Assembly: GCA_017619275.1 (NCBI GenBank)
Contig: JAFZSR010000065.1
Coordinates: forward strand, 1-64,000
Source: Prevotella sp.
GTDB lineage: Bacteria > Bacteroidota > Bacteroidia > Bacteroidales > Bacteroidaceae
Direction of reading: 5' to 3'
DNA: 64,000 nt
How positions within the stretch are numbered: the first letter of the stretch is position 1; each line of letters begins with the position of its first letter. Below the pieces are notes generated by a model. The model ran no database searches and was not told the DNA's origin. It saw only the letters and a program-made list of their open reading frames with translations. The translations under genes were made by a program, and so were the position numbers. Positions 10,975-57,575 of the stretch are shown one piece after another.

Positions 10975-12048
10975 TTGAACCCTACACGAACACATACATT
11001 ACCTTGGCCGTTGGTGGGCCGCTTGGCTGCGCTGCACTTTCTGGTGGATGCGCTCTGCTTGTGTTGTCTTTATCTGCTGGCCGAGCGTGCTGGCGGCATG
11101 AGCCTCACGCACGTGTTCATTTTATATAATGTAATGGCCTTCCTCACCCAACCGCTGACGGGGTGGTTGGCCGATGTCCTCCTTTCAAGGAGCGGATGGG
11201 TGTGGGTTAGCGTCGGTTTGCTGGCGACAGCCGTGTTGACTTCAACGGTAATGATGCTGACGGCTTCGTTTACCCTCCCGCTGTTCTTCGTGGTGGCCCT
11301 GCTATTAGGCGCAGGCAATTCGCTGTTTCATGTGTGGGGAGGCAAGCTTGTAGCTGTTGCCACTAATAACGACATGCGTGCCTTGGGCGTTTTTGTCTCT
11401 ACGGGGGCTTTCGGCTTGGCCGTAGCCACCGTGTGCTACTCTTGGCCATTGCTCTATGTGCTGCTGGCAGCTGTTGGAATTATGACGAAGACCCAGCAGA
11501 CCCTCCCCCTGCAGACCCTCCCCCTGCAGACCCACCCCCGGCCCCTCCCTGAAGGGAGGGGAGTAGATAGTTCTGCTATATCCCCAACAAATGACAAGTC
11601 TATATATTCCCCTCCCTCACAGGGAGGGGCCGGGGGTGGGTCTTCTTCTCCCGTACGGGAGGGGTTGGGGGTGGGTTTATTGTTTGCTCTCATCCTCTTC
11701 GTCATGCTCCGTTCACATGTAGGTGGCGTCTTCTCGTCCTGCCTTGCGGGGCAGGGTGGGGCGTCCATCGTGCTGCTCATTGGCGCCACGGCCATGGCGG
11801 GCAAGATGGCGGGCGGCTGGATAGCCAGACAGACGGGTATCGTATGGGGACTGACGCTGATGGTGGCGGCGACGGTGGTTTGTCTGCTGCTGCGTGATGC
11901 TGGCTTTGCATGGCAGTTGAGCGGACTGCTGACCATAAACTTCACTATGCCCGTGACGCTCTACATGGCCAATGCCGTGCTGCCGGGACGTGAGGGCCTG
12001 GCCTTCGGACTCTTAGCCGCTGCCTTGATGCCGGCGTACCTTTTGTAA
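10975..12048 (+). CDS. MFS-like membrane transporter carrying an in-frame repeat insertion
   Basis: This is a 357-residue polytopic membrane protein with an MFS-like layout of about six helices, a central loop and further helices. TTG at 10975 is the likely start because it keeps the first helix (AALHFLVDALCLCCLYLLAE); the next Met (11098) would remove it. Residues about 172-233 (QQTLPLQTLPLQTHP... to ...GLGVG) are low-complexity Pro/Gly/Ser sequence encoded by a G/C-rich hairpin repeat (11490-11675), placed between helices 6 and 7. That is where the cytosolic loop of an MFS protein lies, so function may be retained. The substrate is unknown. It probably forms an operon with the two small membrane protein genes downstream. 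Confidence 0.75.
   Translation: MNPTRTHTLPWPLVGRLAALHFLVDALCLCCLYLLAERAGGMSLTHVFILYNVMAFLTQPLTGWLADVLLSRSGWVWVSVGLLATAVLTSTVMMLTASFTLPLFFVVALLLGAGNSLFHVWGGKLVAVATNNDMRALGVFVSTGAFGLAVATVCYSWPLLYVLLAAVGIMTKTQQTLPLQTLPLQTHPRPLPEGRGVDSSAISPTNDKSIYSPPSQGGAGGGSSSPVREGLGVGLLFALILFVMLRSHVGGVFSSCLAGQGGASIVLLIGATAMAGKMAGGWIARQTGIVWGLTLMVAATVVCLLLRDAGFAWQLSGLLTINFTMPVTLYMANAVLPGREGLAFGLLAAALMPAYLL
11490..11675. repeat. G/C-rich paired-hairpin element, copy 1 (inside the MFS gene)
   Basis: The left hairpin is CCCCTCCCTgaAGGGAGGGG and the right hairpin is CCCCTCCCTcacAGGGAGGGG. They are flanked by CCCACCCCCGG and its complement CCGGGGGTGGG and separated by about 50 bases that include AGTAGATAGTTCTG and GACAAGTCTATATA. 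The two halves are inverted relatives of each other, as in REPIN elements. Two direct copies of CCCTCCCCCTGCAGA precede it. The reading frame stays open throughout. Confidence 0.8.
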
Positions 12049-12078
12049 GTGATAAGTGACAAATTGTAGATAGAAGAC

Positions 12079-12411
12079 ATGGAGGTGTTACGGAGCATGT
12101 TACTGGCATTGACGCTCACTATTGTGGTGGAGCTGGGCGTGTTGTGGCTGCTGGGTGAGCGCCGTGGCAAAGTGTACAGAGCCTCTGTGTTGATGAACAT
12201 CGTCACCAATGTGTCGCTCAACTACTATTTGGTCTTTGTGGCCTTTTCAACGCTTGTTGTTTTGGTGGGCGAAGTCTTGGTCGTGCTTGTTGAGACGCTA
12301 TGGTATCAACCCTACCTGCATTGCTGGGAACAGTCCTTCCTCTACAGTCTGCTCTGCAATACCACAAGTTTCCTCACAGGACAGCTGTTGCTCCTATTGT
12401 TATTATCTTAA
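12079..12411 (+). CDS. Small polytopic membrane protein, function unknown
   Basis: This 110-residue protein has three or four hydrophobic segments (LLALTLTIVVELGVLWLLGE, LNYYLVFVAFSTLVVLVGEV and a C-terminal run of leucines). It is not recognised. It sits 30 bases after the MFS-like gene and 21 bases before another small membrane protein gene. The three are probably co-transcribed and may act together. The codon pattern and clear ATG support it being real. Confidence 0.6.
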   Translation: MEVLRSMLLALTLTIVVELGVLWLLGERRGKVYRASVLMNIVTNVSLNYYLVFVAFSTLVVLVGEVLVVLVETLWYQPYLHCWEQSFLYSLLCNTTSFLTGQLLLLLLLS

Positions 12412-12432
12412 CCCTATAAAAACAAACGTATT

Positions 12433-12675
12433 ATGTTGTCATTACTATTAGATATTATCGTAGAGCCTCGCGTGCCGCGACACGTCATCGACACCATCGT
12501 CACTCGTCAGGAAGTAAGCGACTCCTTGCGCTATGCCGAGGAAAGCGGAGCCGCCAGCGGCGGTTCGCCACTCTTGAACTGGGGCATCCCCCTGCTGCTG
12601 GCCGCCCTGGCAGCATGCCTCGGTTTCATTTTCCTCTATCGTCGCCGCTTGGCAGAAAAGGTGAGACCCTGCTGA
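12433..12675 (+). CDS. Small single-pass membrane protein, function unknown
   Basis: This is an 80-residue protein. A short hydrophobic N-terminus (MLSLLLDIIVEP) is followed by a polar stretch (VIDTIVTRQEVSDSLRYAEES), a transmembrane helix (IPLLLAALAACLGFIFLY) and a basic tail (RRRLAEKVRPC), so the tail is probably cytosolic. It is not recognised. It is the last gene before a convergent boundary with the sigma factor operon. Confidence 0.5.
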   Translation: MLSLLLDIIVEPRVPRHVIDTIVTRQEVSDSLRYAEESGAASGGSPLLNWGIPLLLAALAACLGFIFLYRRRLAEKVRPC

Positions 12676-12751
12676 GCGTAGAATCGCCAAGGGGCAGAAT
12701 AGGGGCTAAAGTGTACTCTGAAAAAGTGCCCCAATTGTGGTTGGGCGACTC

Positions 12752-13666
12752 TCAGAACGAGCCGTTCTGACTACGCTTTCCAAACAGTTCGCCGATGTTG
12801 ATGCCGAAATTCAGGGATGAGCAGTAGGCCTTCTTGCCGTCAGTAGTCTTGAATAGGGGTAGGAGGTCTATGGAGGCACAGAACTTCACAGGACCGAGGA
12901 CCATGTTGAAATCGACGTTCATTCCCCAATGGTAAAGATTTAGCTTTCGCTCAACGGGGTTGCCAAAAGCCTCGGGTTCGAACATATAACGGGCTTTTCC
13001 GAAGCGGTATTCAGGTACAATGCCTATTCCAAACTGCGTGTCGAGCCAGTCTGTCGACCAATTGACTGTAGGCGCATAGCCCAGCATGAACGGCACCCGC
13101 ATAGAGGCATACGACATATAGTTGGCCGAAGCCGGCGCATTCGTGTGGTCTTCAAAGGCTATGTGGTGCCCATCGTTGGCGAGGAGCGCACTGTTCTGGA
13201 AAGAGTGTTTGTTGTAGACCATTTGTATGGCAGTGGAGAACAGGAAATTACCCCTCTTATTGATGGGCAGGATACCTTCTGCTGTAGTGATGCCTATCTC
13301 AAAGCCTCCCCGTGCATGAATCCCCTCTTTCGATGTGGTGCTTTCCTTGTTGCCGATGTTTGTCGATAGTGACTTCGAGCCCAACCAGATAGTTGGATGC
13401 ATTGACGAGTATGAGAGGCTGGAATTAGTAGGTAAGATCGGCGAACTGACGTAAATTCGCTCCACCTCTTGGTTGTTGACAAACTTCGTCTCGCTCGCTT
13501 TTGTCAGCTGGTTGCTGTCTTGCGTATAGACACTGATGCGAGTTTCCACTGGGTCGTCACTGATGAAAAACTGCTTGCCATTATAGACGATGGTGGTGTC
13601 GGTCACTTCTACGGCCATAAGCCCTAAGGGCATGACCAAAGCCAGAATGATGATTGTCTTTCTCAT
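12752..13666 (-). CDS. Exported protein, probable outer membrane beta-barrel
   Basis: This 304-residue protein has a signal peptide (TIIILALVMPLGLMAVEV). The second half has alternating aromatic/hydrophobic strands (RVPFMLGYAP, FGIGIVPEYRFG, WGMNVDFNMVLGPVKFCAS), as in small outer membrane barrels, and ends NFGINIGELFGKRSQNGSF. No family was recognised. It is the last gene of a four-gene minus-strand operon headed by an ECF sigma factor, 13 bases after the preceding gene. It may therefore be a product or a target of that stress response. Confidence 0.6.
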   Translation of the reverse strand: MRKTIIILALVMPLGLMAVEVTDTTIVYNGKQFFISDDPVETRISVYTQDSNQLTKASETKFVNNQEVERIYVSSPILPTNSSLSYSSMHPTIWLGSKSLSTNIGNKESTTSKEGIHARGGFEIGITTAEGILPINKRGNFLFSTAIQMVYNKHSFQNSALLANDGHHIAFEDHTNAPASANYMSYASMRVPFMLGYAPTVNWSTDWLDTQFGIGIVPEYRFGKARYMFEPEAFGNPVERKLNLYHWGMNVDFNMVLGPVKFCASIDLLPLFKTTDGKKAYCSSLNFGINIGELFGKRSQNGSF

Positions 13667-13679
13667 TTTTTCTATTTTG

Positions 13680-14117
13680 TTATCGTTTTCTTCGTTGGTA
13701 GCAAATCTTCAATATGTCGTCGGGTTCCAGTTTGCCCTCGATGTAGATGATGGCTCCGCTCTTGTCCTCTTTTTGTGTGTAGAGCACGTAACGGTTTAGC
13801 CCCTCGGTTATTGGTGGCAAGATATAGTAGCCACTACTGATATGCCCATCGCTTATCACTTCGCGAATCTTCTTGGCCTGGCGGCGGTCTTCCTCCAGTA
13901 TGGTGGCTATTTGGTCGCCCTGATTGCGATAGGTCAGGCTCTGGTAGGTCTTCAGTTCATATCCGCGTAGGCTGGTGTTGTGCATTTCCACCATTTTGCA
14001 GCCCCGCTCATGGCCGAAGCGACTGAACGCGTCAGCCACTGCCAGTCCCTCCTGGGCCAATGCTATATGATCGACCAATAGGAGCAAAGCGATAAGATTA
14101 AACAATCGTCTCTTCAT
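13680..14117 (-). CDS. Small exported protein of the sigma factor operon
   Basis: This 145-residue protein has a signal peptide (MKRRLFNLIALLLLVDHIALAQ). The mature part is hydrophilic with a conserved-looking core (KMVEMHNTSLRGYELKTYQ) and ends in Arg/Lys. Small exported proteins of this look are often encoded next to ECF sigma/anti-sigma pairs in Bacteroides and Prevotella. Function is unknown. It lies 12 bases after the anti-sigma-like gene. Confidence 0.65.
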   Translation of the reverse strand: MKRRLFNLIALLLLVDHIALAQEGLAVADAFSRFGHERGCKMVEMHNTSLRGYELKTYQSLTYRNQGDQIATILEEDRRQAKKIREVISDGHISSGYYILPPITEGLNRYVLYTQKEDKSGAIIYIEGKLEPDDILKICYQRRKR

Positions 14118-14129
14118 AATATATCCTCT

Positions 14130-15067: not shown

Positions 15068-15154
15068 CTTTTATATAAATAACGAATGGGCAAAGGGTTT
15101 TGTGACATTGGCTTCCGTTTTTTTCTGCATTTTCCCCGTTAAGTCGGATCCTCG

Positions 15155-19196: not shown

Positions 19197-19270
19197 AGAG
19201 AATTGCGAATTATGAATGACGAATCCCGTGTTCGTCATTCGTAATCCGCAATTCATAATTCGTAATTAGA
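19197..19270. repeat. 7-bp period AATTCGT array with hairpin
   Basis: The sequence is a palindromic array of 7-bp units (AATTGCG, AATTATG, AATGACG ... ATTCGTA, ATTCATA). AATGACGAA and TTCGTCATT form a perfect 9-bp stem around TCCCGTG. It sits just after the DUF2723 stop codon and could act as a terminator or processing site. Confidence 0.55.
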
Positions 19271-21223: not shown

Positions 21224-22441
21224 ATGAATTTCTGGTGGATTTTGTATATCGTAGACGGTTTGCTGTTTGCCCTGGTGGCGATGACGGTAGTCTATTTCCT
21301 TGTTTTCTCCACCGCCTCGTTGTTTAAACAGCGCAGCAAGGTAAAGCATGCCAAGACGCAAAACCGCTTTATCGTGCTCATCCCTTCCTATCAGCAAGAC
21401 GAGGTCATTCATTTGACGGTGAACTCCATCCTGGGACAGACTTATCCGCAGCGCCTCTTCGACGTGGTGGTGATTTCCGACCACGAGAGCCAGCTCACCA
21501 ACATGCGGCTGGCGCAGCTTCCTATCACCCTCTTGACGCCCGACTTCGACGTGAGTTCGAAGGCCAAGTCGCTGCAGTATGCCATCTTCAACTTGCCGAA
21601 ATACAAAATTTACGATGCCGTTGTCATTCTCGATTCTGGCAATATCGTGAAGCCTGAATTCTTGGAGGAAGTGAACGACGCCTATACCTCGTCGGGCACG
21701 AAGGCTTTGCAGGTGCATCGCCTCTCGGCCAACCGCGACACGCCCTCGGCGCGCTTGGACTCCATCTTCGAGGAAATCAACAACTCGGTGTTCCGTCGTG
21801 GACACCAGGTGCTGGGCCTCTCGGCCTCGCTGTGCGGGTCGGGCATCGTGTTCGATTTCCCCTGGTTCAAGAAGCACATCATGAAGATACGCAGCATCCT
21901 GGGCGAGGACAAGGCTCTGGAAACCATGCTCATGCAGGACAACATCTTCGTAGACTATTTTGAAGACATCCACGTTTACGACGAGAAGACGCGCGACATA
22001 AAAGATTTGAACAAGCAGCGAGGCCGCTGGATCTACACCCAGCTGCACGCCCTCATCAATAGTTTGCGCTATCTGCCTTCGGCCATCCTGAACCGCAACT
22101 ACGACCAGATAGACAAAATCCTGCAGTGGGCGCTCATGCCCCGCACCATCCTGGTGGGAGTCATTTTGATTATGAGTCTTGTCCTACCCTTCATCTATAT
22201 GTCGCTGGCTTTCAAGTGGTGGGTGGCAGGAGCCTTGGCACTGTTGTCCTTCGCTTTTGCCCTGCCCGACTATCTGGTTGACAAAAACCTGAGTTCCGAT
22301 TTCTCCCATGGCTTGCTTGTCACCGTGGGAGGTCTGCAAAACATCTTCCGAGCCAGCCACAGCGAGGTTTCCGACCGCCTGCAATCGGCTAAGAGAGGGC
22401 TGGCCAACCTGAGGAAAAAGAGAAAGAAGAAAAAACGATAA
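21224..22441 (+). CDS. Membrane-bound family 2 glycosyltransferase
   Basis: This 405-residue protein starts with a transmembrane helix (LLFALVAMTVVYFLVFST). A GT-A catalytic domain follows (IVLIPSYQQDE, then VVVISDHES, SSKAKSLQYA and a DxD-like position in AVVILDSGN). Two C-terminal helices (TILVGVILIMSLVLPFIYM and the next) lead into a very basic tail. The acceptor-side EEINNSVFRRGH and RGRWI (QxxRW-like) segments are typical of processive or membrane GT2 enzymes. It should add sugars to a lipid-linked glycan on the cytosolic face. It overlaps the next gene (TAATG); the two proteins are paralogues. Confidence 0.88.
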   Translation: MNFWWILYIVDGLLFALVAMTVVYFLVFSTASLFKQRSKVKHAKTQNRFIVLIPSYQQDEVIHLTVNSILGQTYPQRLFDVVVISDHESQLTNMRLAQLPITLLTPDFDVSSKAKSLQYAIFNLPKYKIYDAVVILDSGNIVKPEFLEEVNDAYTSSGTKALQVHRLSANRDTPSARLDSIFEEINNSVFRRGHQVLGLSASLCGSGIVFDFPWFKKHIMKIRSILGEDKALETMLMQDNIFVDYFEDIHVYDEKTRDIKDLNKQRGRWIYTQLHALINSLRYLPSAILNRNYDQIDKILQWALMPRTILVGVILIMSLVLPFIYMSLAFKWWVAGALALLSFAFALPDYLVDKNLSSDFSHGLLVTVGGLQNIFRASHSEVSDRLQSAKRGLANLRKKRKKKKR

Positions 22442-23715
22442 TGGGCTACTCCATGCTGCACCTCCTCGACTGGCTGCTGTGGATAGTCATGGCGGCATCG
22501 GTGCTCTATGCCCTTTTCTTCGCCCTTGCATCCCTTCTTCCCCAGCGGCGCAACAAGCAGGGTGGGGGCGAGCCGCCAAGCAGTGGCGACACCCATTTTC
22601 TTGTGCTCTTTCCTGCCTACAAGGAGGACGCGGTCATTGTGCATTCGGTGGAGACATTTCTTCACCAAGATTATCCTACAGAGAATTATCACGTGGTGGT
22701 CATCTCCGACCACATGCAACCCGCCACCAACGAGCGCTTGAGCGCACTGCCCATTACCCTGCTCACCCCCCATTTTGAGAAGAGTTCGAAGGCGAAGGCC
22801 TTGCAGTATGCAACGGCCCCCTCCAACCTCCCCCAACTGGGGGAGGCTATCCCTACGGATTCCTCATGCGCAGCTGCCTCCCCCAGTTGGGGGAGGTTGG
22901 AGGGGGCCGGGGGCTGGTTGGAGGGGGCCGTTGTTCTCGATGCTGACAACATCGTTTCCCCCGATTTCCTTTCAAAGCTCAACGCGCTGTGCCAGCAGGG
23001 CTACAAGGCCATCCAGTGCCACCGAACTGCGAAGAATGCCGACAACGACATTGCTGCACTCGACGGCCTGAGCGAGGAAATCAACAACAGCATCTTCCGT
23101 CGTGGCCACAACCGCCTGGGACTTTCGTCGGCACTCATCGGCTCGGGCATGTGCTTCGACTATGAGTGGTTCCGCCTGAACGTAGGGCAGTTGCGGTCGA
23201 CGGTGGAAGACCGCGAGCTGGAGGCGCTGCTGATGCGGCAGGGCATCTACATCCACTTTGCCGACGACATCCTGGTGATGGACGAGAAGGTGAGCAGCAG
23301 CGACAATTTCCAGCGCCAGCGACTGCGCTGGATGACAGGGCAGGTGCAGTCCTTGGCGCTCATGCTGCGCCACCTCCCTAGCGCCATCCGTCACGGCAAC
23401 ATCAACTACATCGACAAGACGCTGCAGCAAGCCCTCATCCCCCGCTCGCTGCTGCTGGTGTTCATCCCGCTGATGGCCGTTGTGACGCTGGTGGCCAGTC
23501 CCGTGCACAGCATCAAGTGGTGGGTGCTGCTGGCCCTGCTGGCCGTCGCCCTGCTGGTGGCCATCCCCCGCCGTCTGCGAGGCCGCCAGCTATTGGCTTG
23601 CGCCGTGGCCTTCCCCTGCTTGGCGTGGCGCATGCTGGCCAACCTGCTGCACATCAACACCCGAAGCAATGATTTCCTGCACACCACCCACGGCAAGGAG
23701 GCCGGCGAGGCATGA
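22441..23715 (+). CDS. Membrane-bound family 2 glycosyltransferase with an in-frame repeat insertion
   Basis: This 424-residue paralogue of the preceding enzyme has the same layout: helix, GT-A domain (LVLFPAYKEDA, VVVISDHMQP, SSKAKALQYAT), EEINNSIFRRGH, QRLRWMTGQ, then C-terminal helices. Compared with its neighbour, residues about 125-163 (APSNLPQLGEAIP... to ...GWLEGA) replace a short segment just before the DxD-like VVLDADN. That stretch is encoded by a near-perfect inverted repeat element (22814-22930). Whether the enzyme still works is uncertain because the insertion is beside the nucleotide-sugar site. The frame is intact and gene overlaps on both sides are kept. Confidence 0.85.
   Translation: MGYSMLHLLDWLLWIVMAASVLYALFFALASLLPQRRNKQGGGEPPSSGDTHFLVLFPAYKEDAVIVHSVETFLHQDYPTENYHVVVISDHMQPATNERLSALPITLLTPHFEKSSKAKALQYATAPSNLPQLGEAIPTDSSCAAASPSWGRLEGAGGWLEGAVVLDADNIVSPDFLSKLNALCQQGYKAIQCHRTAKNADNDIAALDGLSEEINNSIFRRGHNRLGLSSALIGSGMCFDYEWFRLNVGQLRSTVEDRELEALLMRQGIYIHFADDILVMDEKVSSSDNFQRQRLRWMTGQVQSLALMLRHLPSAIRHGNINYIDKTLQQALIPRSLLLVFIPLMAVVTLVASPVHSIKWWVLLALLAVALLVAIPRRLRGRQLLACAVAFPCLAWRMLANLLHINTRSNDFLHTTHGKEAGEA
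22814..22930. repeat. G/C-rich paired-hairpin element, copy 2 (inside a GT2 gene)
   Basis: Perfect 33-bp inverted arms (22814-22846 and 22877-22909), each containing the internal palindrome CCTCCCCCAACTGGGGGAGG or its complement and each ending in CGGCCCCCTCC, surround a 30-base centre. A further partial copy of the arm end (GGTTGGAGGGGGCCG) follows. The paired inverted palindromes are REPIN-like. This is a sub-type with CCCCCAACTGGGGG cores. Confidence 0.85.
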
Positions 23716-35564: not shown

Positions 35565-38075
35565 ATGAAAATTCTTTTCCTCACCTACCACGGCTTTGAA
35601 GAGGCCAGCGGCATCAGCAAAAAGATGCTGGCACAAATCAAAGGCCTGCGCCAGAACGGGCACGAGGTGCACGTGTGCAGCTATGCACTGTCGGAACAGG
35701 GTGAGCGTTGCAGATATGTTGACGGTGAGGTGCTTAAGAACTATGGCCGCGGGCGATGGACCACGCTCAGGCAGCGCATGGATTTGGGATGCGTGGCCGA
35801 TTATTGCATTGCCAACCATATCGAGCTGGTTTATGTGCGCAGCTTCATGAATGCCTCGCCGTTCAATATCCGTCTGTTTCGTCGGTTGAGGCGCAACGGC
35901 ATCCCTTCCGTCATGGAGATTCCCACCTATCCCTACGACAAAGAATTTGAGTCGGTTCCGCTGAAGTATCGTTTTGAGCATATCTTCGACAAGCTGTTTC
36001 GTCGCCGTCTGGCCGCCTGCATGAGTGCCATCGTCACCTTTTCCGACGAGAAGTGTATCTTCGGCCAGCGCACCATCACCATCAGCAATGGCATCGACCC
36101 CGACACGCTGCCCCTGCAGCCTGAGGTTGATGCCTCAGACGAAGTGCACCTGATAGGCGTGGCCGAGGTGCATCCGTGGCACGGCTTCGACCGCATGATC
36201 CATGGGTTGGGGCTCTATTATAGCCAGGCAGGAGGCGCACCGCGCCGCCCCGTCTACTTCCATGTCGTGGGCGATGTGAGCGATGCCATCATGAATGGCG
36301 ACAAGTACCAACCTGGCTTCAGGCATCTCATCGAGCAGTATCACATCGAGCGCAACGTGGTGTTCCATGGGAAGCTCTTTGGCACGGCGCTCGACCAGGT
36401 GTTCGCCCAGTGCGCCTTCGCCGTGGGCAGCCTGGCGCGCCATCGTAGCGGCATCACCAACATCAAGACTTTGAAGAACCGGGAGTATGCCTGTCGAGGC
36501 ATTCCCTTCGTCTATTCCGAAAACGACAGCGATTTCGACCACCAACCCTACGTGCTGAAGGTGCCGGCTGACGAATCCCCCATCGATGTGCAGCAGATCC
36601 TGTCGTTCATCGACCAAAGGGAACGTAACGGAGCCTTCCATCCTGCCGATATCCGCCAAACGGTGGAGCATCTCTCCTGGACCGTGCAGATGGGGGAGGT
36701 GGTGAAGAAATTACAAACCATTACCAGCAGACCCACCAGACCCTCCCCCTGCCCCTCCCTTGTAGGGAGGGGAGTAGATAGTTCTGCAGACTCTTCAGCA
36801 GATGGTAACTATTCCAATGACAAGTCTATATACTCCCCTCCCTACAAGGGAGGGGCAGGGGGAGAGTCCGGTTGGTCTGGTGGGGCTGAGGGGTCCGGTT
36901 GGTCTGCTGGGGTGGGTATCCTCTATGTAATTGACTCCCTTGCTAGCAAGGGCGGGGCCGAGCGGGTGCTGACCGACAAGATGAATTATATGGTGGCCCA
37001 TTGGGGCTACAAGGTCTTTGTCGTCACCTGCTATCAGGACATCCAGACGATGCCTAACGCCTATCCGCTCTCGGAGAAGGTGCAGCAAGTCAACCTGAAC
37101 ATCCCCTACTATTCGCAATACAAGTACCGCTATCCACGGCGGCTATGGGTGAAGTGGAGGCTCTATCGCCAGCTATGCCGCGACCTAAAGGCTGCCGTCG
37201 ACCGCATCGGCCCCGATGTGCTCGTGGGGCTGAGCTACTTCAATGCCCATTTGGTGAGTGGCATCCGTTGCCGCGCCCTGAAGGTGACCGAGAGCCACGA
37301 GGCCCGTCCCTTCACCATGAGCGACGCGGGACTGGGGCGCTCGTGGTGCTCGCGGCTCTTCATGCGCTGCTACAAGAAATGGTATTTCCGCCGAGTGGAG
37401 CGGCAGAGCGACGTAGTGGTCGCGCTCACCCAGGGCGATGCCCGCCACTGGCAACAGGCTAGGAGGGTGGCCGTCATCCCCAACTTCACCGTGCTGCCTG
37501 CATGCCCAACCATCGACGTCGGAAGCGCCAAGCGCGTCATCGCCGTGGGGCGCCTAGAATGGCAGAAGGGCTTCGACCGGCTCATCGACGCTTGGGCGCT
37601 CGTGGAGCAGGGCCACCCCGATTGGCAGCTCCGCATCTTCGGCTCAGGCACGTTGCAGGGCGCCCTGCAACAGCGCATCGCCCGCGCCGGACTGCGCCAG
37701 GCCGACATCCACCCCTTCACCTCGGCCCTTGGTCAGGAGTATGCCCGCAGCGCTATCTTCGTGCTCAGCTCACGATGGGAGGGCTTTGGGCTGGTGCTGC
37801 TCGAGGCTATGCAGGCGGGGCTGCCCTGCGTGGTGTTCGACTGTCCCTATGGTCCTGCCGACGTGGTGGAGGATGGCCGCAGCGGCTTTGTGGTTCCCGA
37901 TGGCGAGGTGCAGCAGTTCTCCGCCCGCATCGGCCAGCTCATCGACGACGACCAGCTACGCCGCACGATGGGCATGCAAGCGATGGAACGGGCCAAACAG
38001 TTTGATGCCGACACAGTGATGGCGCAGTGGAAGCAACTGTTTGAACAAGAAATTTCTAAAAAGACTTCAGCTTGA
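35565..38075 (+). CDS. Fused tandem GT-B glycosyltransferase (two domains joined by a repeat-derived linker)
   Basis: This 836-residue protein contains two complete GT-B enzymes. Residues 1-387 (MKILFLTYHGFEEASGISKK; later YHIERNVVFHGKLFGTALDQ and VGSLARHRSGITNIKTLKNR) form a divergent GT1-like domain. Residues about 388-450 (RPTRPSPCPSLVGRGVDSS ... SGWSAG) are encoded by a paired-hairpin repeat. Residues 451-836 form a GT4 domain ([60 protein letters not shown]). The ancestral state was probably two adjacent genes, fused when the element replaced the junction. The start at 35565 follows a -7 box. Its 3' end overlaps the convergent GT2 gene by 20 bases. Confidence 0.87.
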   Translation: MKILFLTYHGFEEASGISKKMLAQIKGLRQNGHEVHVCSYALSEQGERCRYVDGEVLKNYGRGRWTTLRQRMDLGCVADYCIANHIELVYVRSFMNASPFNIRLFRRLRRNGIPSVMEIPTYPYDKEFESVPLKYRFEHIFDKLFRRRLAACMSAIVTFSDEKCIFGQRTITISNGIDPDTLPLQPEVDASDEVHLIGVAEVHPWHGFDRMIHGLGLYYSQAGGAPRRPVYFHVVGDVSDAIMNGDKYQPGFRHLIEQYHIERNVVFHGKLFGTALDQVFAQCAFAVGSLARHRSGITNIKTLKNREYACRGIPFVYSENDSDFDHQPYVLKVPADESPIDVQQILSFIDQRERNGAFHPADIRQTVEHLSWTVQMGEVVKKLQTITSRPTRPSPCPSLVGRGVDSSADSSADGNYSNDKSIYSPPYKGGAGGESGWSGGAEGSGWSAGVGILYVIDSLASKGGAERVLTDKMNYMVAHWGYKVFVVTCYQDIQTMPNAYPLSEKVQQVNLNIPYYSQYKYRYPRRLWVKWRLYRQLCRDLKAAVDRIGPDVLVGLSYFNAHLVSGIRCRALKVTESHEARPFTMSDAGLGRSWCSRLFMRCYKKWYFRRVERQSDVVVALTQGDARHWQQARRVAVIPNFTVLPACPTIDVGSAKRVIAVGRLEWQKGFDRLIDAWALVEQGHPDWQLRIFGSGTLQGALQQRIARAGLRQADIHPFTSALGQEYARSAIFVLSSRWEGFGLVLLEAMQAGLPCVVFDCPYGPADVVEDGRSGFVVPDGEVQQFSARIGQLIDDDQLRRTMGMQAMERAKQFDADTVMAQWKQLFEQEISKKTSA
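36728..36915. repeat. G/C-rich paired-hairpin element, copy 3 (linker of the fused GT gene)
   Basis: The left hairpin CCCCTCCCTtgtAGGGAGGGG is followed by AGTAGATAGTTCTG as in copy 1; the right hairpin CCCCTCCCTacaAGGGAGGGG is preceded by GACAAGTCTATATACT. Outer arms are CTCCCCCTG and CAGGGGGAG. Downstream are degenerate GGTCCGGTTGGTCTG repeats. The centre differs from copy 1, so the conserved parts are the two halves. Confidence 0.85.
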
Positions 38076-49025: not shown

Positions 49026-50159
49026 CTATTTCCTGACGCCAAACAGCCAGCGCGCCAATACGGGGCTGAGGCGCAAAAGATTACTGATGATCAGGCAGAT
49101 GGCGATGATGAGCAGCGAGATGGAGAACGAGACAAAGAATTCCAGCACAGGCATGGGATGCTGGTGGAACACTTGTGCCACGGCAGAAAGATTCAGGGGC
49201 AGCAGGAAATAGTGCAGGAAATAGATGTCGAGGGTGCGGCGGCCAATATAGCAAAGCGCGTTGCCCACGATGGTTTGCTTGTTAAACAGCCCGGCTCTCG
49301 ACCTGAAAAAGGCGAGCACAATCGTGATGCCCGTGAAGGCCGTCAAGAGGCGGAAGAGCTGATAATGTGACGAGATGACTGTTTCGCGGAAGATGTTCAG
49401 CCCGAAGAACAGCAGCAGACAGACGGTGAGCAGCGCCCTACCATCGAGCAGCGATGAAAAGCGGGTGAAATACTTTCTCGCCAAAGTGCCAAAGATGAAA
49501 TACACGAAATAGCACCAATGCTTGCAACCGAGAAGTGACAGCACATCGGCGCCGACTGGCAGCTTCTCCATGACCGACGGGATGGTGACCACGAACATGG
49601 CAAACCCTGCCACAACCATGAGCACGTCCTCCTTCCATCCGTGCAACTTCAGACCCAGCGCCGAGAGACGGGCCAACGAGTAGAGGATGAAGTAGACGAA
49701 GAGCGTGTAGGTGAACCAATAGCCGCCCTTGGAGTCGGACCACAAGTTTTCTTTCAGGCTTTGGTGGCTGACATAGGTGAAAGCCAGGAAGAAAATGCAT
49801 GTGGAAATGATTTGAACGGGGAACTTCTTCCCAAGGAACCTAACACTGTGCGTGAGATTCCACGTGACGTCTGCTTTGTAGAGGACGAAGCCGCTCACAA
49901 AGAAGAACAGTGGCATGCGGAACTCATAGAAATAGGTATTGAGCGAGGGCGTGGCTCCATCAATATTCAAGCAGAAGCCGGCCACATGATTCAGCACCAC
50001 AAGAATCATGGTGAAGCCACGCATGGCGTCAATATATTCTATGCGATGAGACCCATACCCTTCCAGCCCCCTCCCAGCCTCCCCCAACTGGGGGAGGAGA
50101 AGGGGGGAGGGGTGATTAGTTACTTCTTCCATCTGTTCTCTCGTATGTTTCATCTGCAA
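49026..50159 (-). CDS. Acyltransferase family 3 membrane protein (third copy) with a repeat-derived N-terminus
   Basis: This 377-residue protein has its family start at residue 40: RIEYIDAMRGFTMILVVLNH (catalytic His in LNH) and RMPLFFFVSGFVLYKADVTW. About ten helices follow. Residues 1 to about 33 (NHPSPLLLPQLGEAGRGLEG) are encoded by a G/C-rich hairpin element (50061-50114), not by normal family sequence. Either the element was inserted near the start, or a true start lies after it (the ATG of AMRGF is too far in). Expression from the upstream fucosidase region is uncertain. It converges with the second copy at 49023, 2 bases away. Confidence 0.82.
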   Translation of the reverse strand: MQMKHTREQMEEVTNHPSPLLLPQLGEAGRGLEGYGSHRIEYIDAMRGFTMILVVLNHVAGFCLNIDGATPSLNTYFYEFRMPLFFFVSGFVLYKADVTWNLTHSVRFLGKKFPVQIISTCIFFLAFTYVSHQSLKENLWSDSKGGYWFTYTLFVYFILYSLARLSALGLKLHGWKEDVLMVVAGFAMFVVTIPSVMEKLPVGADVLSLLGCKHWCYFVYFIFGTLARKYFTRFSSLLDGRALLTVCLLLFFGLNIFRETVISSHYQLFRLLTAFTGITIVLAFFRSRAGLFNKQTIVGNALCYIGRRTLDIYFLHYFLLPLNLSAVAQVFHQHPMPVLEFFVSFSISLLIIAICLIISNLLRLSPVLARWLFGVRK

Positions 50160-50222
50160 GTCTATATACTCCCCTCCCTACAAGGGAGGGGTAGGGGGTG
50201 GGTCTGTTGGGGTAGGTCTGCT
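50061..50222. repeat. G/C-rich paired-hairpin element, copy 4 (N-terminus of the acyltransferase gene and upstream)
   Basis: A first half, CCCCCTCCCAGCCTCCCCCAAC then TGGGGGAGG, lies within the coding start at 50061-50114. A second half, AAGTCTATATACTCCCCTCC and then CTacaAGGGAGGGG followed by TAGGGGGTGGGTCTG, lies at 50157-50222. Each half resembles one of the two sub-types seen in copies 1-3; the piece between is ordinary coding sequence of the acyltransferase N-terminus. Confidence 0.75.
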
Positions 50223-52336: not shown

Positions 52337-55300
52337 TTATGGATTGACTCGTTTTTGTGTTTTGCTGCCCTGCTTCACGATGTAGATGCCATGCTGCGGA
52401 GCCTGCTGCAGGCGCACACCGCTCAGGGTGTAGTAGGTTGGACGTTGAACGGTGACAGCGGAACGCTGAACGTCGTCGATGCCCGTGTCGATGCCGTAGC
52501 CATAGAGCACCACCTTGTTGGCGCGGAACTCCTGCTGACCGCTACCCTCGGCCAGGTTGGCCTGGAAGCCGAGGCATACCTCGGCGGGCTGGTCGAGCGT
52601 GAACCAGATGCCATCGAACACATTGTTGTCGGCATTGCGCTGGTTGATGTTGAGCCATGCGATGCTCTGCGTCTCGATGTCGGCCGTGGCCAGGGGCTGC
52701 AGGGCTGCGAAGAGGTAGGGCTGGTGCAGGTTGTAGCGTGTCTCGAAGGTGTTGCCGAAGTAGTAGCGTCCGGCATTGAGCTGCACGCGCTGGTAGATGC
52801 GGGCATTGGTGAGGTCGCCATCCTCGTTTCGGTCGCGGTCGTCCCAGAGTCCGAGTGCCAGACAGTCGTAGCCGGGATAGCGGTCGAGACCCTGCTTGGT
52901 GCCGTCGCCGCCGTTGGGGATGAGGAAGTTCTCGACCGTCCAGTACTTCGGGGCGGCAAAGCGGGTGGTGACGTTCTCGTCGGCGCGTGCGAAGTGGTCG
53001 CTTTCGTGCAGGAGGTCGATGGTGAGGTCGGTGGCATCGAGCTTCTCAGGCTGTCCGCCGGGGTTGCGCCCGTTCTGCATGAAGTCGGCCAATGCCTCGC
53101 TCAAGGCGTTGTAGGCGCGGCTCACGGTGTCGTAGTCGGCCGTTGACTCCACGGCCTTGGCTTGTGCGACGACGGCTTGCAGCTGTTCGTAGGCTTTCTG
53201 CGAGTAGTAGCCAGTGTTCTCGTTGATAACGACGCCCTTCACCTGCTCTTCCACGCTCTCGATGAGTGTCTGCAGCTTGGCGTAGGTGATTTCGCCGTAG
53301 TAGAGCAGCTTGATGGCCTTTACACGCACGTTGGCGGTGTAGCTCTCGCTGAAGTCGGCCTGGAAGCCCATGTAGACGGTGGTGGGCTCTTCGAGGGTGA
53401 AGTAGATGCCGCGGAAGCTGGTGGCGTCGCGCGGTGCCTGGTCGACCTGCTCGTAGGCGATGGACTGCGTGGGGATGTCGCTGGTGGCGAGAATCTCCTC
53501 CGATGCGAAGATATAGCTGTTGCTGTTGGGCTCGAAGGCGGGATAGCAGGCGCCCAGATAGTAGCGTCCGGCGGGCAGCTCGGCCTTCTGGTAGATGCGG
53601 GCGTTGCTGATGTCGTAGCCGTGCTCGGCGAAGGCGTTGTTGTTCCACCACACCTCGAGGTGCAGACAGTCGTAGCCGGGGTTGTTGTCGATGCCTGCCT
53701 GGTTGTCGAATCCGAAGTTCTCGACAATCCAGTTCTTGGCGGCGCCGAAGCGTCCTGCACTCTGGGTGTCGTCGGTGCGTGCGAAGTTCTCCGACTCACC
53801 AAACACCTCGATGGTCTTGTCCTCGTAGCTGGTGCCGATGGGGGCGCCGCCCACGTTCTTGCCGTTCTTCAGAAAGTCGTCAAGGGCCTGTTGAAGGGCC
53901 TCGTAGGCTTGGTCTATTTCGTCCTCGTCGGTGCTGTAGATGGCGTCCTCGGCCTTCTCGATGGCAGCCTGGAGAGCGTCGGCGGCTTCGCGGCGGTAGT
54001 AACCCGTGTTGCCGTTGATCTTCACTTGGTCGAGCAGTGTCCAAGCGCGCTCGATGAGGTTGAAGAGGGCGTCGGTGTTGACGGTGCCGTAGCTGAGCAG
54101 CTTCACCTCCTGCGTGCGGAACTCGCGGTCGCTCACTCCCGTGAGGTCGGCTGCGAAGCCCAGCACCACGTCCTGCTCCTCGGGCACATAGAAGCTGATG
54201 CCATACCACTTGCCTTTCTCGGCCCCGTTGAGCTGGGCGAAGGCGATGCTGCCGTCCTCCACGTCGATGGTGTTGAGTGCCTCGTTGGCTGCGAAGAGAT
54301 AGGCGCGCTCGGAGAGGTTGTAGCTGCTCTCGAACTTCTGTCCGAAGTAGTAGGTGCCCGGCTCAAGGTGCACGGTGCGATAGATGCGCGAGTTGGTGAG
54401 GTCGCAGGTATAGGGCTGCACGTCCTCGCTGCCCCACACGCCGAGGAACAGCGTGTTGTAGCCGGGATAGGCGTCGATGCCCTGCTTGGCGCCCTTGGTG
54501 GCGTCGTTCTGGGGCACGTTGTAGTTCTCCACGGTCCAGTGCTCGGGCTTGCCGAAGCGTGAACCCATCTCGATGGCCGAGAAGTTGCTGGCCTCGACGA
54601 GCTGCTCGGTGGTGAGGTCGGCCTGGTAGCCATCGGCGGGCGTGCCGGGCTGGTTGCGGCCTTCGGTGAGCAGGGTGTGGTAGGCATCGTTCAGCTGGCC
54701 GATGACCACCTTCTGGTTGGCCTCGCTGTCGTTGATGTGCGGGCGGGCGTCCTCAATGGCCTGTGCGAACTTGTCGAGTCCGCGCTTGCTCAGCTTGCCG
54801 GTGTTGTTGCTGGCCTGCGGGCGCAGTTGTGCCAGCAGTGCCTCGTAGCCCTCGATCACCTCGAGCAGCGTTGGGGCGGTGTCGGTGCCGGGCACGAAGG
54901 TAATCTTCAGCACGGGGGCGATGTCGTTGGGATGCACGTCGGGGAGGGTGACGGTGAGTCCGTTCACTGCCTCGGTGTAGTTCACGTTGCCATGGCCCAG
55001 CAGCTCCACGCTCTGCACCTGTCCGCTAAAGTACTCCGAGCTTTTGCCCAAGCTCTGGAAGGTGAAGTTCTTGCTGGCGGGCCAGCGCATGATGGTGGCG
55101 TAGAGCACGCCGTCCTTCTGTGCGTAGCGCACGTCCTTCGACGAGTAGTTGTTGCCCTCGTTGAAGCCCTGGGCGCTGAGTGGGTTGGCGGCATCGGCCA
55201 GCGGTCCTTCGCCGAAGGTCTTCCAGGGGCGGGTGCCGTAGATGCTCTCCGAGTTGATGTCCATCCAGGCCTTGATGCCGGCCAAGATGGCCTCCTCCTT

Positions 55301-56461
55301 GTCGTCGATGGTGCCGTCGCTCCTGACGGGCACGCTGAGGAGCAGGTTGCCGTTCTTCGACACGATGTCGACGAGCATGTCGACCACTTGCTGGGCGCTC
55401 TTGTAGCCGTTGTTCTGATAGACGTGGATGTCGTAGTGCCACGAGCCGATGCAGGTGCAGGTCTGCCAGTACTTGTCCTGAATGCGGTCGGGGATGCCGC
55501 GCTCCACGTCCCACATCATGTAGTCCTTCTGCTTGTCGGTGAGCTGCTTGCCGGTGACCACCACGTCGCTCCTCTTATTATAATAATGAGCAAGGATGTT
55601 CTGGCCAATCTGGTCGTCGCAACCGTAGAAGGGCATGGCCGTGTCGTCGAAGTAGATCATGTCGGGGGCGTAGTCGTTGATGAGCTCCAGCACGCGGTTT
55701 TGGAACTTCAGCTTGTACTCGGCCGAGGGCAGGCTGGCGCCGTTGCCCCAGTCCCACTGGTTGTGGATGGTTCCGCTGTTGTCCCAACCCGTGGAGTGGT
55801 CGTGGTTCTGGGCGTAGAGCTCCTGCGGGTCCAGGCCTTCCCACCACTTGCCGGCTCCGTCGGCCTTGGTCAGGTTGCCGTCGTAGTCCTGCGAAGGCTC
55901 GAGCCAGGTCCAGGCATGCGAGGCGTGGATGCTCACGCCCAGTGGCAGACCGGCTTTCTTGCAGGCGTCGCTCCAGCCCTTGATGAGGTCCTTCTTAGGT
56001 CCTACGTTCACGGAGTTCCACTCCTGATAGGGCGAGTTCCAGAGGTCGAAATTGTCGTGGTGGTTGCCCAAGGCCATGAAATAGCGGGCGCCCACGCTCT
56101 TGTAGAGGTTCACCAGCCGCTCGGGGTCCCAGTTCTGGGCCTTCCAGTCGTTGCAGAGGTCCTTCAGTCCGAAGACGGCGGGATTGCCAAAGTGGCTCAC
56201 GTGCCAGTCGTACTGGCCGCTGCCCTCGTAGTACATGAAGCGGGCGTACCAGTCGCCGTCCTCGGCGTGGCACTGCGGTCCCCAGTGTGCCCAGATGCCG
56301 AACTTGGCATCCTTGAACCATTCGGGACACTCCCAAGCGCTGAGCGAAGTCCAGTCGGGCTCGTAGGTGCCTGTCTGAACCTCCACGTTAGCACTCTGTG
56401 CGCTCATCGTCAGCACAGAGGCTGCAAAAGCAGCAAACAATAGTGTAACTTTTTTCTTCAT
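52337..56461 (-). CDS. Large multidomain GH29 alpha-L-fucosidase with three repeated accessory modules
   Basis: This is a 1,374-residue exported enzyme. Its start at 56461 (MKKKVTLLFAAFAASVLTMS) gives a signal peptide and lies after a -7 box. The N-terminal GH29 domain has WFKDAKFGIWAHWGPQCHAE, LGNHHDNFDLWNSPYQEWNS and PDMIYFDDTAMPFYG (probable nucleophile). From about residue 540 there are three repeats of a helical FIVAR-like segment (NTGKLSKRGLDKFAQAIEDA; NTGYYRREAADALQAAIEKA; NTGYYSQKAYEQLQAVVAQA), each followed by a beta-sandwich of the DUF5013 kind with PGYNTLFLGVW/PGYDCLHLEVW/PGYDCLALGLW. The C-terminus (YYTLSGVRLQ...GIYIVKQGSK) resembles type IX sorting tails, and a 7-bp-period array encodes DVQRSAVTVQR there. 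The modules may bind glycans or space the enzyme from the cell. Confidence 0.9.
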   Translation of the reverse strand: MKKKVTLLFAAFAASVLTMSAQSANVEVQTGTYEPDWTSLSAWECPEWFKDAKFGIWAHWGPQCHAEDGDWYARFMYYEGSGQYDWHVSHFGNPAVFGLKDLCNDWKAQNWDPERLVNLYKSVGARYFMALGNHHDNFDLWNSPYQEWNSVNVGPKKDLIKGWSDACKKAGLPLGVSIHASHAWTWLEPSQDYDGNLTKADGAGKWWEGLDPQELYAQNHDHSTGWDNSGTIHNQWDWGNGASLPSAEYKLKFQNRVLELINDYAPDMIYFDDTAMPFYGCDDQIGQNILAHYYNKRSDVVVTGKQLTDKQKDYMMWDVERGIPDRIQDKYWQTCTCIGSWHYDIHVYQNNGYKSAQQVVDMLVDIVSKNGNLLLSVPVRSDGTIDDKEEAILAGIKAWMDINSESIYGTRPWKTFGEGPLADAANPLSAQGFNEGNNYSSKDVRYAQKDGVLYATIMRWPASKNFTFQSLGKSSEYFSGQVQSVELLGHGNVNYTEAVNGLTVTLPDVHPNDIAPVLKITFVPGTDTAPTLLEVIEGYEALLAQLRPQASNNTGKLSKRGLDKFAQAIEDARPHINDSEANQKVVIGQLNDAYHTLLTEGRNQPGTPADGYQADLTTEQLVEASNFSAIEMGSRFGKPEHWTVENYNVPQNDATKGAKQGIDAYPGYNTLFLGVWGSEDVQPYTCDLTNSRIYRTVHLEPGTYYFGQKFESSYNLSERAYLFAANEALNTIDVEDGSIAFAQLNGAEKGKWYGISFYVPEEQDVVLGFAADLTGVSDREFRTQEVKLLSYGTVNTDALFNLIERAWTLLDQVKINGNTGYYRREAADALQAAIEKAEDAIYSTDEDEIDQAYEALQQALDDFLKNGKNVGGAPIGTSYEDKTIEVFGESENFARTDDTQSAGRFGAAKNWIVENFGFDNQAGIDNNPGYDCLHLEVWWNNNAFAEHGYDISNARIYQKAELPAGRYYLGACYPAFEPNSNSYIFASEEILATSDIPTQSIAYEQVDQAPRDATSFRGIYFTLEEPTTVYMGFQADFSESYTANVRVKAIKLLYYGEITYAKLQTLIESVEEQVKGVVINENTGYYSQKAYEQLQAVVAQAKAVESTADYDTVSRAYNALSEALADFMQNGRNPGGQPEKLDATDLTIDLLHESDHFARADENVTTRFAAPKYWTVENFLIPNGGDGTKQGLDRYPGYDCLALGLWDDRDRNEDGDLTNARIYQRVQLNAGRYYFGNTFETRYNLHQPYLFAALQPLATADIETQSIAWLNINQRNADNNVFDGIWFTLDQPAEVCLGFQANLAEGSGQQEFRANKVVLYGYGIDTGIDDVQRSAVTVQRPTYYTLSGVRLQQAPQHGIYIVKQGSKTQKRVNP
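52437..52475. repeat. 7-bp period TTGAACG array inside the large fucosidase gene
   Basis: GTTGGAC, GTTGAAC, GGTGACA, GCGGAAC, GCTGAAC repeat with a 7-bp period and encode DDVQRSAVTVQRP just before the C-terminal sorting-like tail. Confidence 0.55.
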
Positions 56462-56510
56462 AAAACGGGAAAAATGATTGGTTATAGTTGTTAGTGAATG
56501 ATTTCGGGTG

Positions 56511-56518
56511 CAAAGGTA
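56511..56518 (-). promoter_or_regulatory. -7 box of the large GH29 gene
   Basis: TACCTTTG on the minus strand lies 49 bases before the ATG at 56461. Confidence 0.55.
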
Positions 56519-56625
56519 CGCAGTTTTCTGCTTCTTGGGGTTTAAATAATTAACGGGAAATAGGACAAAATGAACCAAATGCGAAAAATATTTAGATTTT
56601 TATGTGACGGAACAATATTTATTTG

Positions 56626-56633
56626 TATCTTTG
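56626..56633 (+). promoter_or_regulatory. -7 box of the AraC-fucP operon
   Basis: TATCTTTG lies 18 bases before the ATG at 56652 and after the alternative start at 56604, which is therefore not used from this promoter. The stretch between this box and the minus-strand box at 56511-56518 is the likely control region of the whole fucose locus. Confidence 0.6.
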
Positions 56634-56651
56634 CAAGCAGAACGTGACGAG

Positions 56652-57575
56652 ATGATGCAGATTCCCATAGAGTCGATGAACCTGATGCTGCTGAACGTGG
56701 GACGTGCGCAGCACAATGCCGACTGGAACTGGCAGGATGTGAAGTCGCCCTTCACCCGCATTTACTATGTGGTGGAAGGCGAGGCGCTGTTGCACCTGCC
56801 TCAGCAGTGCGTCACGCTGCGCCCCCAGCATCTTTACATCATCCCCGCCTACACCGCCCACTCGTATGAGTGCCACGGGCTGTTCACACATTATTATTTA
56901 CATGTGTACGAGGGCTTCAAGACGGCCATGAACCTGCAGGAGGTGTACGAGCTGCCCACGGAGGTGACGGCGGGGGAGAAGACGGAAATGCTGTTCGAGT
57001 TCCTGTGCAACCGCCATCCCAATGCCCTGCTGCCGCAGAGCGACCCGAAGAGCTACGACACGTCGGCTCAGACATCCGACTATGTGGCGCGCTACCGCGA
57101 CATGGAGCTGTGGGAGAAGATGGAGCTGCGCGGCGCCATGCTGATGCTGATGTCGCACTTCATCCGCGAGGCCAAGCTGCGCGTGTGGACGAGCGACGAA
57201 AGGATGAAGCGCGTGCTGGAGCACATTCATGCGCACATCGGCGACACCACCGACGTGGAGGAGCTGGCCAGCGTGGCTTGCATCACCAAGCCTTATCTCA
57301 TCCGCCTGTTCCGTCGCGAGTTCGGCACCTCGCCCGTGCAGTATATCAACAACAAGAAGGTGGAGCGGGCGCAGCTGCTGCTCTTCACCACCGACATGGC
57401 GGTGAAGGAGGTGGCCTACACGCTGGGCTTCAGCGACCAGAGCTACTTCATCCGCCTGTTCCGAAAGCTGACGGGCATCACGCCGCAGGAGTATAGGAAG
57501 CGGATGAAACCCACCCCCAACCCCTCCCGAACGGGAGGGGAGCTGTATAGACAGCAGATGAAACATTCGAGATAA
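56652..57575 (+). CDS. AraC-family transcriptional regulator of the fucose locus
   Basis: This is a 307-residue regulator. The N-terminal cupin-type sensor domain has FTRIYYVVEGEALLHLPQQC and LRPQHLYIIPAYTAHSYECH. The C-terminal double helix-turn-helix domain has LASVACITKPYLIRLFRREF and then AVKEVAYTLGFSDQSYFIRL with FRKLTGITPQEYRKRMK. The start at 56652 (MMQIPIESMNLMLL) follows the -7 box. The last about 21 residues (PTPNPSRTGGELYRQQMKHS) are encoded by a hairpin repeat (57509-57561), so the tail is element-derived. It lies between the divergent fucosidase and fucP and probably senses fucose or a derivative. Confidence 0.92.
   Translation: MMQIPIESMNLMLLNVGRAQHNADWNWQDVKSPFTRIYYVVEGEALLHLPQQCVTLRPQHLYIIPAYTAHSYECHGLFTHYYLHVYEGFKTAMNLQEVYELPTEVTAGEKTEMLFEFLCNRHPNALLPQSDPKSYDTSAQTSDYVARYRDMELWEKMELRGAMLMLMSHFIREAKLRVWTSDERMKRVLEHIHAHIGDTTDVEELASVACITKPYLIRLFRREFGTSPVQYINNKKVERAQLLLFTTDMAVKEVAYTLGFSDQSYFIRLFRKLTGITPQEYRKRMKPTPNPSRTGGELYRQQMKHSR
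57509..57561. repeat. G/C-rich hairpin element, copy 5 (C-terminus of the AraC gene)
   Basis: One half only: CCCACCCCCAACCCCTCCC, gaac, GGGAGGGG then AGCTGTATAGACAGCAGATG. This corresponds to the left half of copies 1 and 3. It supplies the last codons of the AraC-family gene, including the stop region. Confidence 0.75.

Follow-up and report, generated by a model that had tools for sequence, protein, structure and literature searches.

What are the G/C-rich hairpins that recur in a 64,000-nucleotide stretch of Prevotella sp. DNA (positions 1 to 64,000 of contig JAFZSR010000065.1, here called the window), and how did they come to lie in protein genes? Hairpin halves are found at five loci of the window, and a preliminary description had read them as REPINs, mobilised in trans by a REP-associated tyrosine transposase (RAYT) of the Y1 type. 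In other genomes of the genus, and elsewhere in this one, the same kind of hairpin ends enclose a gene for a DUF559 nuclease. We consider it likely that the window pairs are nuclease-less, non-autonomous derivatives of these DUF559 elements, spread by the nuclease and kept where the reading frame stays open.

The hairpin family in the window and the genome

We counted 11 occurrences of CCCCTCCCT in the window against 0.51 expected by shuffling, one of them (at 168) lying outside the five loci, and CCTCCCCCAACTGGGGGAGG, with up to 3 mismatches, gave 6 matches (three sites read on both strands; 0.01 expected). The flanks AGTAGATAGTTCTG and GACAAGTCTATATA are common to the loci. Inverted repeats were found at 36724-36883 (58 nt arms, 91%), 22814-22909 (34 nt arms, 100%) and 11528-11643 (24 nt arms, 100%); single-strand folding gave z scores of -8.4 to -12.0 for the three pairs and weaker ones of -2.5 and -2.8 for the two single halves tested. 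Rfam gave zero matches in the window at its gathering threshold. The five loci, their shared flanks and the REPIN-like layout of two inverted palindromic halves around a variable centre, all put forward in the preliminary description, are therefore real features of the window.

The family is not restricted to it. The whole genome (G000; 3.59 Mb in 127 contigs, 85% complete) contains 158 exact CCCCTCCC-N(3-6)-GGGAGGGG hairpins, with 0 for the reversed control. From the outside inwards, a half comprises a tail (CCCACCCCC and two further bases), a G/C-rich stem-loop of ~20 nt and a core, for example AGTATATAGACTTG; a full element is made of two halves in inverted order, with tails CCCACCCCC / GGGGGTGGG and with GTAG present within the AGTAGATAG cores. 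The stems fall into subtypes (CCCCTCCCG, CCCCTCCCT, CCCCTCTCC and CCTCCCCCAACT) with changes on both sides of the stem, and the encoded peptides are linker-like (PTPNPSRAGG, PSRTGGVGGG).

A second, look-alike hairpin family with GCGCAGCCACTCCCCTCCC flanks and some tail-inward pairs was also observed (L039, L044, L045, L047, L053, L056, L057, L060, L061, L065, L070, L077, L086, L088 and L089). None of its 16 sampled loci lies within a gene and 8 stand at contig ends, as if marking collapsed repeats.

A DUF559 nuclease gene between the hairpin ends

Among 150 genomes of the genus, 87 have a match to Pfam family PF04480 (DUF559), and the genome of the window has five. It was detected in 51 of the 57 genomes having at least 5 hairpins, versus 18 of the 64 having none (p 2.5e-12), and its partial rank correlation with hairpin number is 0.65; these statistics count CCCCTCCC stems only, include the hairpins beside DUF559 and ignore phylogeny. 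For the best DUF559 copy in each of 30 genomes, hairpins lay on both sides in 20, on one side in 2 and on neither in 8; in G156, G142, G134 and G026 they directly adjoin the gene at both ends. With no motif assumed, inverted repeats scoring at least 15 flank 62 of 76 DUF559 genes in named records, versus 4 of 1026 placements made as controls within those loci, and are mostly of the G/C hairpin type. These named loci are the best 80 of 592 matching stretches, less 4 with too short a flank; they come mostly from rumen and gut assemblies of Prevotellaceae, Bacteroidaceae and Bacteroidales, and overlap in part with the 30-genome set.

The ends of these units are related to the hairpins of the window. 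In the same genome, units on contigs C110 and C87 are of the CCCCTCCCT and CCCCTCTCC subtypes, the C110 unit having its CCCCTCCCT stem in common with window copies and the core AGATAGTTCTGC with window loci 11528 and 36724, while a unit on C77 has a left end only, which is degenerate. A DUF559-element arm was found at a similarity of 0.61-0.79 for eight of the nine 45-nt window arms and of 0.41 for the ninth, compared with a median of 0.26 over all element pairs. The arms of the pair at 11528 are among those similar to element arms, and those of the pair at 22811 resemble the arms around DUF559 in the cca gene of G165 and G206. Across 91 elements, arm similarity tracks nuclease similarity (rho 0.28; 0 of 2000 permutations).

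The PF04480 match and conserved residues identify the protein as a PD-(D/E)XK nuclease of the DUF559 family. Its sequence matches two solved structures, the endonuclease-like 3hrl (E 3e-17) and the mobile intron protein 3r3p (E 0.0023), and the median ratio of non-synonymous to synonymous substitution is 0.095 (12 pairs, free-standing copies only). We take YcjD to be the DUF559 protein of E. coli. A YcjD profile detects Vsr, according to the available part of PMC1189080.

On C110 (L320:2983-4162) a downstream ABC-transporter open reading frame (ORF) begins before the DUF559 gene ends, and its N-terminus is read from the right hairpin of the element; the arrangement suggests translational coupling.

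The nuclease and the hairpins within host proteins

In the cca genes of G206 and G165 two CCTCCCCCA-type halves enclose an in-frame DUF559 domain, at the loop where the genome of the window has a hairpin pair. DUF559 is also read in frame with LeuRS (L328, L329, L421, L424), CCA (L335, L336), helicases (L326, L327), ABC-F (L330), aminotransferases (L333, L337), MiaB (L382), ValRS (L391), RecG of two Flavobacteriia (L392, Flagellimonas marinaquae; L393, Winogradskyella tangerina), HsdR-like proteins (L425, L427, L432, L441) and MetH (L428), and forms N-terminal fusions with IspF, ArgB, Gmk and others. Pfam confirmed the fusions in L328, L330, L335, L327, L303 (IspF), L314 (ArgB) and L337, the other hosts being named by eye. 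Among loci not chosen for long frames, 11 of the 80 named ones have DUF559 in frame, 8 of them internally, and 47 of the 150 DUF559 matches listed for the genus lie in an open frame of at least 250 amino acids. At every one of 14 conserved positions in the nuclease, 40-45 of the 45 embedded loci retain the residue; these loci represent 42 distinct sequences of the nuclease, and some were chosen for long frames. A Pfam scan (E <= 0.001) of eight proteins, seven of them fusions, detected DUF559 and host domains and no splicing domain.

In L427, L432 and L441, type I restriction R-subunit-like proteins from different genera, DUF559 seemingly stands at one place, just ahead of QGSGKS; in a similar protein, L425, it stands elsewhere.

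Hairpins without the nuclease are likewise found in real proteins. Hosts with a Pfam or structure match include UvrA, MiaB, RecF, DnaG, XseA, CCA/HD nucleotidyltransferase, thymidine kinase (C-terminus), TerC, a tRNA-methyltransferase-like protein, serine dehydratase alpha, FAA hydrolase, imidazolonepropionase, GH3 and GH43 enzymes, and a helicase with two inserts. Solved homologues do without the inserted peptide in five of the six hosts searched: the two UvrA inserts fall in gaps of 12 and 14 residues, the MiaB peptide falls in one of 14, and those of FAA hydrolase (119-176), XseA (206-292) and RecF (73-107) lie in unaligned stretches; for HutI the alignment begins within the insert. Of 30 UvrA loci fetched, 28 could be parsed, from this genome and 27 relatives, and the same linkers in them hold differing element-like peptides, other sequence or little. 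The cca loop was compared in 22 sequences, from this genome and 21 relatives, after unmatched or duplicate loci were left out of 31 examined. Eleven have G/C-hairpin inserts of several subtypes (2 with the nuclease), 7 have AT-rich or other simple repeats, and in the remaining 4 the loop is short or empty. The site thus seems to collect repeat insertions of any kind. Comparison of TerC orthologues yielded no clean insertion junction. Most of the orthologues examined are without the inserts or have different ones, in keeping with the in-frame insertion first proposed, and we did not find the same sequence recurring in them at the same sites as ordinary protein.

The AT-rich or simple repeats read in frame in the cca loop of other species (TTCATAGTTCAGAGTTC, GTCAACTGTCAAC, AGAATTGAGAATTC) are those of L263, L265, L266, L275, L283, L284 and L285. 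An AT-rich inverted repeat of similar kind (GAATTGCGAATTATGAATGACGAA) lies in the window at 19200-19267, directly after a 1191-residue ORF.

The embedded copies raise the possibility that DUF559 is a site-directed homing endonuclease, copying its element into empty alleles of the same gene and only rarely dispersing to new sites. This is the strongest of the alternatives, and we regard it as possible but doubtful. It would account for the match to 3r3p, for weak homing-endonuclease hits in PADLOC and for an apparent sharing of gene and site between genomes (LeuRS in L421/L424, RecG in L392/L393, HsdR-like proteins in L427/L432/L441, helicase in L326/L327). However, 158 hairpins at many unrelated sites require a transposition-like spread, and the cca loop also accepts unrelated repeats, so common sites can reflect tolerance.

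The Y1 transposase and other candidate movers

The genome contains a single Y1_Tnp match, a protein of 141 residues with the motif MTNHLHM (L058:1480-2570, contig C62). The repeats around it, in direct and inverted copies, form a separate family (GGATTTGCAATCC / GCATTTGCAAATGC), and L058 is likely a genuine REPtron unrelated to the G/C hairpins; the search for a Y1 gene flanked by the family repeat thus ended with different repeats, in an assembly that lacks 15% of the genome. Y1_Tnp is found in 88 of the 150 genus genomes, in 36 of the 57 with at least 5 hairpins versus 33 of the 64 with none (Fisher p 0.27). It shows no clear correlation with hairpin number (Spearman 0.15, p 0.06; partial rank correlation -0.04), and 21 of the 57 hairpin-rich genomes are without a match, including G156, G142 and G056 at 99% completeness. 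A family hairpin lay near the Y1 gene in 1 of 30 fetched loci, scanned up to 1500 bp each side, compared with hairpins on both sides at 20 of 30 DUF559 loci scanned over 320 bp each side; two more Y1 loci passed a loose filter with unrelated stems.

Mobilisation by a RAYT, a Y1 transposase of the HUH type, as first suggested, is therefore not the best reading, and we rejected it as such. The idea that these are REPINs proper, their RAYT missing from the incomplete assembly or missed by the Pfam model, agrees with the layout and high copy number of the hairpins and with the many genomes that have Y1_Tnp; a Bacteroidetes subclass of RAYTs with atypical flanking structures is also described in the available part of PMC6006769. 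Against the own-genome repeats, the contrast between Y1 and DUF559 loci and the Y1-free hairpin-rich genomes, we judge it improbable.

We think it similarly improbable that the hairpins are miniature inverted-repeat transposable elements of a classical DDE transposase, their inverted repeats serving as terminal inverted repeats and DUF559 being a passenger or addiction gene. Inverted ends around a short internal region would fit. DUF559 nevertheless lies between the ends at most loci examined, though no search was made for other cargo or for DDE transposases; by eye, a target-site duplication is not evident; and self-complementary hairpin ends are unusual for terminal inverted repeats.

Placement in genes and use of frames

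The placement of copies was surveyed in 0.965 Mb, comprising the window and 60 further stretches, with our own codon-usage gene caller (757 genes, coding density 0.873). The sample was not random: 9 of the first 20 stretches were chosen for hits and 1 for the Y1 gene, C27, C83 and C100 among the other 40 were known to hold hits, and most stretches start at contig starts. The scan returned 86 entries (14 pairs and 72 single hairpins), of which 36 lie entirely in predicted genes, 25 are flanked by coding signal left and right within a single open frame and 47 are without a gene. Merging gave 66 loci, 16 of the look-alike family (GCGCAGC flanks) and 50 others, of the listed subtypes with a few further CTCCC-type hairpins. 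Of the latter, 28 are inside genes, 3 partly so, 17 intergenic and 2 at contig ends; window locus 11528 was counted as intergenic by the caller despite the open frame through it. The in-gene share differs from that of the look-alike family (28/50 versus 0/16, Fisher p 2.8e-5), also after two calls judged by eye to be native or doubtful sequence (L082 8784 and L078 1207) were dropped (26/48, p 6.0e-5). With contig-end loci excluded, genic copies (28/48) are rarer than coding density predicts (p 5e-7), and insertion in genes is hence tolerated rather than preferred.

The three sense frames are open alike in genic halves (15, 14 and 15 of 28) and intergenic halves (17, 18 and 17 of 28; 57 halves were found, one of them too short). 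They are used 10 : 0 : 4 (p 0.004 versus equal use), a weak result since halves of one locus are not independent, and the unused frame (0/14) is poly-proline, spelling PPPTPP. Use of the antisense frames, 8 : 4 : 2, is not significant (p 0.14). Around four intergenic copies (L040, L042 8124, L046 1272 and L096) the neighbours belong to different Pfam families, or one partner has no match, and no broken gene was recognised. Together, the absence of recognised frame-broken copies from the part tested and the unused poly-proline frame fit the survival of random insertions. Of the selection for, or tolerance of, frame-neutral insertion put forward earlier, tolerance stands, with many copies in frame in real genes; insertion that seeks out a frame was considered and dropped as unneeded, openness being alike in genic and intergenic halves.

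That the peptides are ordinary low-complexity Pro/Gly linkers, non-mobile and converged on C/G-run codons under protein selection, is highly improbable despite their linker-like character, since the same DNA halves also occur between genes, in several frames and both directions, stem complementarity is kept, and orthologues lack them or have unrelated subtypes at the same site.

The loci of the window

The claim that all five loci lie in or at the edge of an open protein gene (Table 1) holds for those at 22811, 36713 and 57509. The case is weaker for 11528, where the caller recognised the 3' part only of the single open frame, and is ambiguous for 50060-50205: one half is inside the acyltransferase ORF, N-terminal to the Pfam domain (residue 41 on), the other upstream of the ORF, and both may be untranslated. 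In the family 2 glycosyltransferase, approximately residues 126-162 have no counterpart in the adjacent paralogue and G007. The left part of the fused ORF is glycosyltransferase-like by eye and without a Pfam match; the right part is a Pfam-supported glycosyltransferase that stands alone in G001, G002 and G008 (ORFs of 346-366 amino acids). At the AraC-type regulator the tail-forming stretch is 57509-57545.

Table 1. Hairpin features of the window and the reading frames in which they lie.
Feature	Position	Strand	Remarks
Hairpin pair	11528..11643	+	Stems 11542-11561 and 11609-11629; no nuclease between; inside open frame 10975-12048
Further degenerate half after first pair	11648-11676	+	Whole locus 11528-11676
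Transporter-like ORF reading through the pair 11528..11643	10975..12048	+	MFS-like by eye; no Pfam match
Hairpin pair, CCTCCCCCAACTGGGGGAGG subtype, within glycosyltransferase	22811..22933	+	Repeat matches, inverted arms
Family 2 glycosyltransferase with ~37-residue insert	22441..23715	+	Pfam; insert absent from neighbouring paralogue and relative G007
Hairpin pair joining two coding regions in a single frame	36713..36910	+	Stems 36752-36772 and 36835-36855
Fused ORF	35565..38075	+	Open from 35304, called start 35565; 923-aa frame; right part (residues 537-917) is the whole ORF in relatives
Single half, CCTCCCCCAACTGGGGGAGG subtype	50060..50110	-	Stem 50078-50097; at or before acyltransferase start
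Single half, CCCCTCCCT subtype	50155..50205	-	Stem 50171-50191; between acyltransferase and fucosidase genes
Single half, CCCCTCCCG subtype, C-terminal tail of AraC-type regulator	57505..57550	+	Stem 57521-57540; regulator ORF 56604-57575

Proposed element

We propose a mobile element composed of an inverted hairpin half, a gene for a DUF559 (YcjD/Vsr-like PD-(D/E)XK) endonuclease and a second inverted half. The nuclease would probably recognise the hairpin ends and spread both complete and gutted copies. Some of these would land in genes, where frame-breaking ones would be removed by purifying selection. Open copies would persist because their C/G-run arms are poor in stops and encode short, flexible Pro/Gly-rich linkers, which loops and termini could tolerate.

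Several observations weigh against this explanation. DUF559 went undetected in six of the 57 hairpin-rich genomes and was detected in 18 of the 64 lacking the stem, in a comparison uncorrected for phylogeny and with our own assembly 85% complete. Outside the genus the arrangement is weaker, 9 of 29 phylum-wide DUF559 loci reaching the score of 15. Among 20 distinct embedded copies, hairpins lie on both sides in 8, on one side in 4 and on neither in 8, and the two RecG copies are without any inverted repeat; this could reflect decay after fixation or another origin, and it slightly lowers our confidence. Neither movement, cleavage nor a nucleotide-level empty site has been seen, target duplication is not definable at the available divergence, and the ends may be moved by another agent, with the nuclease as their passenger.

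On a broader claim we are evenly divided: that Bacteroidota harbour a class of selfish elements, each a Vsr-like nuclease between inverted hairpin ends. Such elements would enter the frames of essential genes with no splicing, so that only a precise in-frame deletion could rid the host of them, and their gutted relics would serve as flexible linkers and gene-fusion joints that remodel the same loops in UvrA, CCA, LeuRS, RecG and others time and again. If this were true, an enzyme could be assigned to a kind of in-frame palindromic repeat with no known mover, a role would be suggested for the DUF559 domain, and residence in essential genes would have a non-splicing alternative to inteins. The tRNA nucleotidyltransferase loop, which is empty, linker-filled or nuclease-filled across related species, offers a natural experiment in linker acquisition. 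For annotation, LeuRS, RecG, MiaB and HsdR-like proteins of Bacteroidota can bear a foreign nuclease domain.

Comparison with known systems

As in the REPIN/RAYT system (REPtron), two inverted hairpin halves surround a variable centre and an enzyme gene is flanked by the same ends, but the gene here encodes a PD-(D/E)XK nuclease and not a Y1 HUH transposase. Inteins sit within essential proteins, among them aminoacyl-tRNA synthetases and helicases. The embedded DUF559 copies resemble them and homing endonucleases, notably the 3r3p mobile intron protein, in placing a nuclease in frame within such proteins; unlike inteins, they have no splicing-domain match in the proteins scanned, have inverted hairpin ends and leave gutted copies as linkers. 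The COG4636 PD-(D/E)XK nucleases are likewise proliferating nuclease genes, proposed to be selfish elements, yet they form a different family, and the abstract of PMC551604 speaks of neither hairpin ends nor in-frame insertion. In Legionella, a segment with a transposase and DUF559 is a recombination hotspot (PMC12308824, available part). The open-access literature, to which our search was confined (subscription papers and preprints lay outside its scope), yielded no hairpin-DUF559-hairpin unit, gutted relatives of one or an in-frame life of one in essential genes.

The closest likeness is to the Rickettsia palindromic elements and intragenic REPs, and the resemblance noted at the outset, in-frame insertion in protein genes, was confirmed, together with absence of the inserts from homologues. 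According to the available part of PMC3733652, in-frame palindromic repeats are known in uvrA, recBCD and pseudouridine synthase genes; in both systems real genes, some of them for DNA repair (uvrA in both), have short palindromes inserted in frame, as dimers and as singles. In the same source the Rickettsia elements bear a GTAG or CGTC tag, with no enzyme known for the CGTC type, whereas ours have C/G-run stems and CCCACCCCC tails, with DUF559 carried between the same ends. The parent hairpin-DUF559 unit, whose movement we infer, fits no kind known to us; taken alone, the hairpins would be a variant of the known in-frame palindromic repeats.

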